Source: an uncultured Bacilli bacterium (GTDB lineage Bacteria > Bacillota_I > Bacilli_A > RF39 > UBA660). From it: 43,954 nucleotides of DNA. Of this stretch, positions 1-41,034 are shown one piece after another (the stretch's first letter is position 1; the number at the start of each line of letters is the position of its first letter). The stretch is from contig CALVRN010000002.1 of the NCBI GenBank assembly GCA_944358675.1, positions 1-43,954 of the forward strand. The letters run 5' to 3'. Both the position numbers and the translations under genes were made by a program. The notes beneath the pieces were generated by a model that had not been told where the DNA came from, searched no databases, and was given only the letters and a program-made list of their open reading frames with translations.

Positions 1-351
1 ACTCCAAAATTAAATATAAAAGAAAATATTGGTAAATACTTTGATTTGTTCATTGATAAAGTTTTTGTTAGCAAAATAAATAACGACCGCAAGCATTTGA
101 AATTACAAATGATATTTAACTTTAAAACACCAGATCAAGAAATGGAACTCGATTATAACAAAAAAGATAATAATAATTCAAACATGAATAATAAAGATGA
201 AAAAACAAAAACAAAAATTACAAATAGAGATTATAGCTTGAGATTGTCTTTTGACAATAATTTTTTAAGACAAAAGTATCTCTTGCTAGATACCAAGGAA
301 CCCAGGTTTTGTTGTCCTAGGTCAAAGACTTGGGAAAAACACATTATTTGA
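1..351 (+). CDS. C-terminal end of a probable large serine recombinase (5' end outside window)
   Basis: The reading frame is open from the first base, so the gene starts to the left of the window. The visible residues (IGKYFDLFIDKVFVSKINN, then NDRKHLKLQMIFNF) resemble the last beta-rich segment of large serine recombinases, just after their coiled-coil region. After that comes a low-complexity Asn/Lys-rich tail. From about base 296 the DNA belongs to the PBP gene in another frame, so the last ~18 residues and the stop codon come from host sequence. An integrase gene lying next to an attachment junction is the usual arrangement for such elements. The catalytic domain is not visible, so the family assignment rests on a short, weakly conserved stretch. 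Confidence 0.45.
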   Translation, partial: TPKLNIKENIGKYFDLFIDKVFVSKINNDRKHLKLQMIFNFKTPDQEMELDYNKKDNNNSNMNNKDEKTKTKITNRDYSLRLSFDNNFLRQKYLLLDTKEPRFCCPRSKTWEKHII

Positions 352-1159
352 CTATATCGATGCCTTTGGTTTTGGTAAAAAAACAGGGGTAGACTTAAAT
401 GGTGAAGCTAGTGGAATAATCTTTGACCGAAGTAAAGTCGGACCAGTTGAACTTGCAACTACCGCATTTGGTCAAGGTGTATCAGTTACACCAATTCAAC
501 AAGTTACCGCCGTAAGTGCTGCTATAAATGGAGGAACTTTATATAAACCATATATTGTGAAAAGTATCAATGAACCAGAAACAAACACAGTCATTAAAGA
601 AACAAAACCAACTAAAGTAAGGCAAGTAATCAGTGAAGAAACAAGTAAAAAAGTAAGAGAAGCATTAGAAAACGTTGTCGCAAATGGTAGTGGAAGAACC
701 TCATATATAGATGGTTATAGAGTAGGGGGTAAAACCGGAACTGCTCAAAAAGTAGAAAATGGTAGATACTTATCAAATAACTATATTTTATCATTTATAG
801 GGTTTCTCCCAGCCGATAATCCGCAGGTTGTTGTCTATATTGCTATTGATAATCCGAAAGGAACAGTTCAGTATGGAGGAACAACTGTTGGACCAATTTC
901 TAAAGCCGTTTTAAAAGATTGTATCAAAGCTTTAAACATTCCTAAAAGTGAAGGAGGCAAAGACAAAAAATACAAATGGCCTGATCCTAAAACTTATAGT
1001 GTACCTGATGTAACTGGTAAAAGTATTGAAGATGCTAAAAAAGAATTAAAAAATTTTGAAGTATCAGTTGAAGGTAATGGAAAAAAGGTTACTTACCAAT
1101 CACCAGAAGCTGGAACTAAATTAGATGAAGGAAAAACTGTTAGATTGTTTACAGAGTAG
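290..1159 (+). pseudogene. ftsI: Class B penicillin-binding protein (FtsI/SpoVD type), 3' part only, interrupted by element
   Basis: This is the transpeptidase half of a septal peptidoglycan D,D-transpeptidase. PBP homology begins at base 299 with NPGFVVLGQRLGK, the segment that starts at the Asn of the active-site SxN motif. It continues through DYIDAFGFGKKTGVDL, AFGQGVSVTPIQ and the KTGTAQ box (bases 731-748), and ends with one PASTA domain (bases ~990-1156, PDVTGKSIEDAKKEL). Just upstream, a TAG at 287-289 closes the frame, and the N-terminal domain, SxxK serine and first residues of SxN are absent. It lies 10 bp before mraY, the normal dcw order. I infer that an element inserted in the gene; a misjoined assembly or a mixed population is possible. 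As drawn, the fragment cannot make an active enzyme. Confidence 0.85.
296..300. other. Inferred right attachment junction of an integrated element
   Basis: To the left the sequence reads as recombinase-like protein in frame 1. To the right it reads as PBP in frame 2, starting at the Asn codon of the SxN motif. The change of identity falls within a few bases of 296-300. The other end of the element, and so the duplicated core, is not in the window, and the exact crossover cannot be fixed. Confidence 0.45.
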
Positions 1160-1169
1160 AGGTGATTAA

Positions 1170-2162
1170 ATGCTTATTCTAACTAAATCTATTATGGCAA
1201 TGATGATTGGTTTTATATTTGCCGCCATAATTGGATTAACAATAATTCCACTTTTAAAAAAACTTCATGCCGCACAAAGTTTAAGTATTTATTTACAAAG
1301 AACACATAAATCAAAAGAAGGTACTCCAACAATGGGAGGATTAATCTTTATAATTTCAACAATCTTAATAACATTAATTTTTATATATTTAAAAAAAATT
1401 GAAATCACCTATACTTTAATAATTATTATTTTTACTTTTTTAAGTTATGGTTTAATAGGTTTTATAGATGATTATTTAATTATAAAAAAACATAACAACA
1501 AAGGATTAACCAAAGGACAAAAATTTAACTTACAAGTAATAGTAGCTATCATCTTTTTCTATTTATTTATGAAATCGGGTAGTGAACCACTACTTTGGAT
1601 TCATAGCTTAAATATTAAAATAGATATAGGTTGGTTCTATGGTGTATTTATCTTATTCATTTTAGTTGCCAGTAGTAATGCGGTAAATTTGACTGATGGA
1701 CTAGATGGACTTGCTGGTGGACTTTCAGTTATTAGTTTCTTAACTTTTGGAATAATATCGTGGAATACTGGCTGGCTTGAAGGATATGAAGATATTGCTG
1801 TATTTGCCTTCACTTTAGTAGGATCGTTATTAGGTTTTCTTCTTTATAACACAAATAAAGCCAAAGTGTTTATGGGTGATACCGGATCTTTATCTTTAGG
1901 AGCTACCTTAGGAGCTTATGCCATATTAACAAGGCACGAATTACTATTAGTTGTCATCGGTTTAGTTTTTGTTATAGAAACATTAAGTTGTATGATTCAA
2001 ATAGTAGTATATAAATTAACCAAAAAAAGAGTTTTTCCTATGACACCCATTCATCATACATTTGAAAAGAAAGGGTGGAAAGAAACAGACATTGTCAAAC
2101 TATTTTGGACTATTGGTTTAATTGCCTCAATGTTTGCTTTAGTATATGGGGTGTGGTTATGA
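1170..2162 (+). CDS. mraY: Phospho-N-acetylmuramoyl-pentapeptide transferase MraY
   Basis: This membrane enzyme makes lipid I by transferring phospho-MurNAc-pentapeptide from UDP to undecaprenyl phosphate on the inner face of the membrane. At 330 residues it has normal family length with about ten hydrophobic segments. Diagnostic motifs are GTPTMGG, the acidic DD pair in FIDDYL, NAVNLTDGLDGLAGG, MGDTGSLSLG and the histidine-rich loop HHTFEKKGWKE. A GAGGTGAT ribosome site precedes the ATG. Its stop overlaps the ftsW start (TTATGA), so the two genes are translationally coupled. It is intact although the PBP gene upstream is interrupted, so its transcription must now come from inside the element or from the PBP remnant. 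Confidence 0.97.
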   Translation: MLILTKSIMAMMIGFIFAAIIGLTIIPLLKKLHAAQSLSIYLQRTHKSKEGTPTMGGLIFIISTILITLIFIYLKKIEITYTLIIIIFTFLSYGLIGFIDDYLIIKKHNNKGLTKGQKFNLQVIVAIIFFYLFMKSGSEPLLWIHSLNIKIDIGWFYGVFILFILVASSNAVNLTDGLDGLAGGLSVISFLTFGIISWNTGWLEGYEDIAVFAFTLVGSLLGFLLYNTNKAKVFMGDTGSLSLGATLGAYAILTRHELLLVVIGLVFVIETLSCMIQIVVYKLTKKRVFPMTPIHHTFEKKGWKETDIVKLFWTIGLIASMFALVYGVWL

Positions 2163-3232
2163 AAAAATTCAATATTTCTCTATTTATAAGTGTTATCATT
2201 TTATCCTTATTTGGACTTCTAATGGTCTATTCATCATCTAGTATTTGGGCTGAATATAAATTTTCAGATCCTTTTAAATATGTCAAAAATCAAGGAATAT
2301 TTTTAATAGTTGGAATAATAATCATGTATATTGTAAGTAAAATAGATTATAAAAAATATTATCAATATGCAAGTAAAATATTTCTTGTTTGTTTTACTTT
2401 AATCATATTAGTTTTATTTGTTGGAACTGAAAGAAATGGTAGTAAAAGTTGGTTTGGCGTTGGCTCTTTTGGTATTCAGCCTAGTGAATTTATGAAATTA
2501 GCTATGATAATTTTCACAAGTAAATATCTTTATAATAATAGAAAAGATATTGGAAACATAAAAAAAGGAGTTATGCCAATACTTGGCTTAACCTTAATTG
2601 TTTTTTTACTAATCATGCTGCAGCCAGATTTTGGAACAGGAGTAATCTTGGTCATGGGAGTAATTGGTCTACTTTTTGTTGGTGGAGTAGATTTAAAATT
2701 TTTCTTAAAAATAGGTGTTTTAGGTGTTGCTGGTATTGTTGGTTTAATTTTAGCCGCACCTTATAGATTGAAAAGAATTTTATCATTTTTAAATCCTTGG
2801 AGTGATCCTTTAGGTAGTGGATTTCAAATTATTCAATCATTATATGCTATAGGACCGGGTGGATTATTTGGCTATGGATTTGGTGGTTCAAGGCAAAAAC
2901 ACTTTTATCTTCCAGAACCTCAAACAGATTTCATTTTTTCAATAATTAGTGAAGAATTTGGTTTTATGGGTGTATTAATTGTCTCTGGTTTATTTGCCTT
3001 CATCATTTATGAAGCTATAAAGATTGCTTTAAACTGTGAAAACTTATTTGGAAAATATCTAGCTTTTGGAATAATATTCATGCTAGGATTTCAAGCTGTA
3101 TTAAATTTAAGTGTCGTAATTGGCTTAATACCAGTAACTGGTGTCACTTTACCGTTTTTATCTTATGGAGGGTCTAGTTTATTAATAACTCTAGCTTCCA
3201 TGGGTATTATCTTAAATATATCTAGACATTAA
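2159..3232 (+). CDS. ftsW: Lipid II polymerase / cell division protein FtsW (SEDS family)
   Basis: FtsW is the SEDS-family peptidoglycan glycosyltransferase that works with a class B PBP at the septum. The ATG at 2159 overlaps the mraY stop; the frame is open further upstream, but that part is only the mraY gene in another frame. The 357-residue product begins MKKFNISLFISVIILS and has about ten transmembrane segments. SEDS signatures are FGIQPSEFMKLAMI, LLIMLQPDFGTG, LPEPQTDFIFSIISEEFGF and TGVTLPFLSYGGSSLL. RodA is the closest alternative, but the position after mraY favours FtsW. Its cognate PBP would be the interrupted gene upstream, which makes the interruption notable. Confidence 0.92.
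   Translation: MKKFNISLFISVIILSLFGLLMVYSSSSIWAEYKFSDPFKYVKNQGIFLIVGIIIMYIVSKIDYKKYYQYASKIFLVCFTLIILVLFVGTERNGSKSWFGVGSFGIQPSEFMKLAMIIFTSKYLYNNRKDIGNIKKGVMPILGLTLIVFLLIMLQPDFGTGVILVMGVIGLLFVGGVDLKFFLKIGVLGVAGIVGLILAAPYRLKRILSFLNPWSDPLGSGFQIIQSLYAIGPGGLFGYGFGGSRQKHFYLPEPQTDFIFSIISEEFGFMGVLIVSGLFAFIIYEAIKIALNCENLFGKYLAFGIIFMLGFQAVLNLSVVIGLIPVTGVTLPFLSYGGSSLLITLASMGIILNISRH

Positions 3233-38859: not shown

Positions 38860-41034
<2,175 letters not shown>

Follow-up and report, generated by a model that had tools for sequence, protein, structure and literature searches.

Large serine recombinase elements interrupt a predicted spoVD gene in an uncultured Bacilli bacterium and in its gut relatives

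Results and discussion

A split gene at the start of the contig

The window analyzed here comprises 43,954 nucleotides, positions 1–43,954 of contig C2 of the genome under study (G000), and begins at the contig start. A second contig of this genome, C22, also enters the analysis; related genomes and the loci taken from them carry G and L numbers, respectively. Judging by named matches, the lineage belongs with Candidatus Coprosoma, Candidatus Faecimonas, and Bacillales UBA660. On the forward strand, the window opens within a large serine recombinase (LSR) gene and contains its C-terminal tail (1–301), which is recognized by identity to homologs and toward the end of which lies the right arm of an attP inverted repeat (275–287). 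A four-base crossover core, AACC (299–302), is followed by the 3′ half of a class B PBP gene (299–1159; PF00905, 7e-53; PF03793, 2.2e-14), identified below as spoVD. This half encodes residues 349–634 and the stop codon, and includes the end of the transpeptidase domain, the KTG motif, and one PASTA domain. Next on the same strand come mraY (1170–2162, taken from the ORF listing and identified from sequence and gene order) and an ftsW/spoVE-type gene (2159–3232, start approximate), both intact, as a preliminary description of the window had reported. The latter scores 403 bits against TIGR02614, over the cut-off, and 436.6 bits against the spoVE model TIGR02615, for which the cut-off is 448.8.

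Read base by base, the AAC of AACC is the Asn codon of an S-C-N motif, exactly the SxN position at which the preliminary description had placed the junction. The spoVD frame continues past AACC to the stop that ends at 1159, and neither our reading of the sequence nor Pfam finds PBP sequence to the left of position 299. A Transpeptidase search of G000 matched the missing part at C22:6533–6850 on the minus strand, and the whole 5′ half (residues 1–349) occupies C22:6539–7585, also minus, ending in ...ENSCN before element sequence begins. At the junction, C22 reads GAAAACTCATGTAACC followed by TAGTAG, and the C2 window reads CCAAGG followed by AACCCAGGTTTTG. AACC is common to both ends, and the flanks rejoined in silico give a single in-frame ORF of 634 codons whose seam reads ENSCNPGFVVLG. 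The junction is a real recombinase attachment site, with attR in the window and, on C22, the attL and 5′ half for which a search of other contigs had been suggested.

Identity of the interrupted gene

spoVD is required for spore formation and not for growth, and in B. subtilis it lies in the order pbpB-spoVD-mraY-spoVE. The corresponding order in G000 is mraZ, rsmH, ftsL, a PBP2b-like gene, several other genes, and the split gene on C22, with mraY and the ftsW/spoVE-type gene on C2; the split gene also encodes a single C-terminal PASTA domain. Scored separately against TIGR02214, the two halves reach 361.6 bits (positions 5–346) and 366.1 bits (347–634), where the curated cut-off of 688 bits is for a full-length match; an intact ortholog (L008) exceeds it at 762.1 bits. 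On this sequence evidence, the interrupted gene is spoVD and not a septal or division PBP gene.

The preliminary description had taken it for the septal transpeptidase gene and had argued that splitting it should be lethal. Since the gene is a sporulation transpeptidase gene, vegetative lethality is not expected, and we discarded the argument once spoVD was recognized. The second class B PBP that had been put forward as a way around lethality does exist: an intact PBP2b/PBP2X-like gene, the division paralog, lies at C22:13705–15876, between ftsL and the spoVD locus.

Genes for Spo0A, SpoIVA, and sigma-E-like and sigma-K-like factors are present in G000, and spore formation is predicted for the UBA660/RF39-type family. 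For RF39, spore formation has been predicted in the literature, yet spoVD was found reduced or absent (PMC10868615); this reduced presence may in part reflect splits that were missed. In B. subtilis, spoVD is bound by SpoIIID and belongs to the mother-cell programme (PMC517825).

Recurrence across the family

Using the joined G000 protein as query, we took a census of 193 sampled genomes of the UBA660/RF39-type family. By row count, spoVD is full-length in 104 of the 193 and partial in many others, and at least 47 genomes, about a quarter, carry it split at one or more of three sites. Site 1, within SxN (SCN/P, the slash marking the boundary), is occupied in at least 22 genomes, site 2 (VTPI/QQ) in at least 26, and site 0, within SxxK (STFK), in at least 4; the total comes to at least 47 because five genomes (G050, G081, G133, G180, and G192) are occupied at both sites 1 and 2. 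Some of these assignments derive from alignment boundaries and others from junctions that were read, and the remaining census genomes are truncated at contig ends, unclear, or without the gene. At one locus, L124, all three sites are occupied. In Bacillus, Paenibacillus, and similar genera, all 18 loci are intact. Within the genus, spoVD is split in 9 cases and intact in 25, and the division paralog is split in none of 42 (Fisher p = 0.0004). In L222 (G134) the 3′ part begins near residue 405 (FGQG), which is a possible fourth site; the element end that precedes it resembles those of site-1 elements.

The search of relatives for the same insertion point, which the preliminary description had proposed alongside a check for misassembly, found an identical boundary in many independent relatives, and the G000 junction is neither a misassembly nor a chance match. 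An assembly or binning artefact, in which unrelated contigs were joined at a conserved motif, might have been suspected from the error-prone nature of MAGs and from the placement of the halves on different contigs in G000 and most relatives. It is refuted by eight genomes in which 5′ half, element, and 3′ half follow one another on a single contig, and it could account neither for a boundary that recurs across different assemblies in dozens of genomes nor for the attP dyads described below, which a chance join does not produce; we regard it as extremely improbable.

The recombinases

The sequence to the left of the junction had been described as recombinase-like. The 100 amino acids encoded by window positions 1–300 are identical at 100 of 100 positions to residues 483–582 of a complete LSR from the sister species G208 (L046:5942–7687, minus strand), and 61.6% identical to the site-1 LSR of G019. 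Pfam run on window positions 1–351 did not match a recombinase, so the profile check that had been proposed fails for the tail itself and the identity comes through the complete homologs; in relatives, the complete LSRs found at this site carry PF00239 (Resolvase), PF07508 (Recombinase), and PF13408 (zinc ribbon). The tail belongs to the last gene of the element, on the same strand as spoVD, and its reading frame enters spoVD out of frame to stop at 349–351. These homologs bear out the earlier proposal that an LSR element sits at a conserved motif of the active site.

Only this C-terminal tail of the G000 LSR was assembled, the N-terminal, catalytic part falling between C22:1 and C2:1. A resolvase-domain search of G000 gave as its sole match a second, unrelated LSR (window 38972–39412), which puts the catalytic domain of the spoVD element in the assembly gap. 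That second LSR is complete, with 636 amino acids at window positions 38909–40819. Toward the end of C22, a SHOCT-like ORF is followed by a degenerate LSR start, which has no catalytic Ser after RV, and by the beginning of a further copy. Read from the sequences, the catalytic Ser of the RVS motif is present in 17 of 18 complete LSRs; in that of G208, the closest complete one to G000, Leu replaces it. Given the unassembled N-terminus, the degenerate upstream copy, and the Leu in G208, the catalytic domain of the G000 recombinase may have decayed, and this element may be unable to move unless help is supplied in trans.

In a tree of 18 LSRs, three clades correspond perfectly to the three sites (branch supports 100/100, 96/98, and 100/100). 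The site-2 LSRs of G020, G184, and G185 are 82–85% identical to one another, compared with 60–63% for their spoVD genes (85.4% versus 60.0% for the pair G020/G184), and this higher identity of the LSR in several pairs indicates that the elements spread horizontally.

Other genes of these bacteria also adjoin LSRs. In G207, spoIVA is split at a conserved HTPW motif by about 44 kb (C9:17442–62234; L057, L158, L159), with an LSR as the last gene in the same orientation, and contig C41 of G193 (L160) has one split and one intact spoIVA copy. In L185, what appears to be the 3′ half of an ABC ATPase gene begins at the signature motif (QRVALIRTLAI) directly after an LSR; judged from this sequence, LSRs of the family may split further genes at conserved motifs. 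A sample of 30 LSR loci, chosen by domain score, lies mostly beside non-sporulation genes and shows no general preference for sporulation genes, so the LSRs collectively have no specificity for them.

Element structure and cargo

The G000 element is longer than 6.8 kb, with its left 6.5 kb on C22 and its last 0.3 kb at window positions 1–301. Its ends form a perfect 13-bp inverted repeat, AGCAAGAGATACT on the left (C22) and AGTATCTCTTGCT on the right (window 275–287), and the attP dyad, with 19 of 28 possible pairs, is centered on the AA of the AACC core. A similar right arm occurs at the right end of the elements in G019, G050, G048, and G147. Dyads across elements have 16–20 of 28 pairs, with AA at the center in 7 of 8 site-1 elements and CA in all five site-2 elements examined; at the right end of G123/G193 the dyad is missing. 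Elements recovered contiguously (G020, G184, G185, G123, G019, G035, two in G050, and G153) span 3.9–15.5 kb and carry unrelated cargo, and in each the LSR is the last gene, on the spoVD strand. A SHOCT-like ORF of 39–100 amino acids, a candidate recombination directionality factor (RDF) gene, lies immediately before the LSR in all 18 elements, and an ORF of 144–183 amino acids is common to the G000 and site-2 elements.

In the G000 cargo, a 153-amino-acid secreted protein (L006:5250–5711) precedes three membrane proteins and an ABC ATPase (L006:2173–5172), a set reminiscent of bacteriocin export. Rfam gave no match to the element and its flanks, and the attP patterns of sites 1 and 2 found none in viral contigs.

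In G208 (L046:5734–5961) and G211 (L053), a fossil piece of spoVD covering residues 349–412 lies apart from the intact or main gene, with the right end of a site-1 element on one side and the left end of a site-2 element on the other.

Signs of a working, reversible split

All 13 split genes that we rejoined yield 632–636 codons, have no stops, and keep the SxxK, SxN, and KTG motifs; for G019 and G185, the join is one codon off at the seam. Between G000 spoVD and the intact gene of G205, dN/dS is 0.035, from which the insertion is recent, or the gene still in use, or both. This low ratio and the lack of stops speak against a pseudogene heading for loss while a second, intact spoVD serves elsewhere in the genome, and genome searches of G000 found no second copy. 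The reported reduction or absence of spoVD in RF39 (PMC10868615) and the intact gene beside a fossil piece in G208 lend that account some substance; we consider it improbable.

Three relatives preserve both states of the gene. In G211, the intact and inserted contigs have exactly 77 nt in common, ending at the CA core, and diverge from there; in G209, the intact contig stops exactly 77 nt beyond the point where the AACC core starts; and in G092, the 3′ contig begins exactly at AATC and overlaps the intact contig by 87 nt. We read these ends as forks in the de Bruijn graph that fall on the att core and show the coexistence of intact and inserted alleles. The mixed population suggested in the preliminary description is thus supported in these three genomes and not in G000. 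We infer excision as the source of the mixed alleles, with which they are compatible as they are with strain mixture alike. Contig breaks in G001, G087, and G120 were considered as further mixed alleles and rejected, since they fall off the att cores. Likewise, attP-like junctions in G179 (L213), G180 (L212), and G041 (L210) were rejected as excised circles on reading: that of G179 is a tandem array whose LSR is interrupted by a transposase-like insertion, and those of G180 and G041, between element sequences, apparently belong to composite elements.

Upstream of spoVD, a sigma-E/K-like −10 sequence, CATAnnnT, lies at −22 to −26 before the start in 63 of 93 regions. Three site-1 LSRs (G035, L124, and G166) are preceded by a sigma-A-like promoter, TTGACA-N17-TAACAT, and not by a sigma-E one, so timed regulation would need a timed directionality factor. 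In C. difficile skin, the LSR is constitutive and the RDF supplies the timing (PMC5025042); by analogy, the sigma-A-like promoters fit such an arrangement, as they do simple constitutive excision.

These promoters also suit a plainer account, in which ordinary LSR elements merely tolerate spoVD as a site, excise constitutively at a low rate or hardly ever, and leave sporulation lost or delayed, with no developmental timing. The LSR of G208 without its catalytic Ser, the many other genes that family LSRs adjoin elsewhere, and the intact spoVD of most genomes in which the gene was typed, consistent with a facultative parasite, point the same way. This account sits poorly with the two or three insertions that persist together in single genomes, with the intact alleles that coexist in three MAGs, and with the stop-free, motif-complete halves of all 13 split genes, which recent insertion could also explain. 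We hold it to be unlikely, although less so than loss of the gene or an artefact.

Proposed mechanism

Taken together, we favor, at a probability of roughly 0.7, skin-like LSR elements with a new target, spoVD, whose precise excision restores the gene, likely during sporulation. An LSR-borne integrative element would enter spoVD by attP × attB recombination at an AA/AACC core within the SxN coding sequence, and spoVD would be tolerated as a landing site because it is needed for sporulation and not for growth. A precise attL × attR reaction would then restore the intact 634-codon gene. By analogy with skin in sigK, the most likely setting is the sporulating mother cell; the gene probably needs to be stitched back before a spore can form. 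The features of skin-like elements recur here: insertion within the coding sequence of a sporulation gene, which is restored precisely and in frame (in silico), and a recombinase of the element's own with dyad att sites, complete in relatives and partly in the gap in G000.

A bolder extension, which we advance tentatively and with more doubt than conviction, is that spoVD is, in the DNA itself, a gene in pieces, with up to four coding segments separated by independent LSR elements at SxxK, SxN, and VTPI/QQ that would all have to be removed precisely in sporulation for the cortex transpeptidase to be made, ordered multi-element excision acting as a developmental checkpoint.

The splits suggest a reason for the reduced or absent spoVD reported for RF39 (PMC10868615). 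The favored mechanism also makes a concrete prediction on how the spore cortex is built in UBA660/RF39-type bacteria.

Comparison with known intervening elements

To our knowledge, the elements known to intervene in sporulation genes have been isolated examples from cultured Bacillus and Clostridium. The closest likeness is to skin in sigK of B. subtilis and Clostridioides difficile (PMC5025042, PMC517825), where an LSR element likewise interrupts a sporulation gene within its coding sequence and excision restores that gene in frame. Here, by contrast, the target is spoVD (once spoIVA), three sites are used, the cargo is unrelated, and the timing of excision is putative; moreover, the LSR gene lies at the 3′ end of the element, whereas in skin it directly follows the host gene's 5′ half. 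A site-specific recombinase and a short shared att core are likewise features of yin in yabG (PMC10747680), of vfbin in spoVFB and gin in gerE (PMC5595907), and of SPbeta in spsM (PMC4191935). Each of these was described at a single site, whereas in spoVD three LSR clades act on one gene, sometimes together, and across many genera. The known targets of intervening elements are sigK, spsM, spoVFB, gerE, and yabG, and spoVD is not among them (PMC10747680); we found no report of a native spoVD element in the open-access literature.

A mobile element has been seen inside spoVD in B. subtilis, where ICEBs1 inserted there; this was a secondary ICE site in a strain without the primary attB, and excision was undetectable (PMC3715440). 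SCCmec/Ccr-like LSR elements at conserved coding motifs resemble the present ones in the LSR, in the att dyad, and in tandem accretion at one att site (G179; compare also the attP-like junctions of G180 and G041). Their target genes differ, and the only match of the Ccr models is to the window's second LSR, with a score well under cut-off. Set against all of these, the novelty here is that one gene of a large uncultured gut family is targeted recurrently at three motifs by three dedicated LSR clades, with several insertions per gene; together these provide a natural set of LSRs with known attachment sites in coding sequence.
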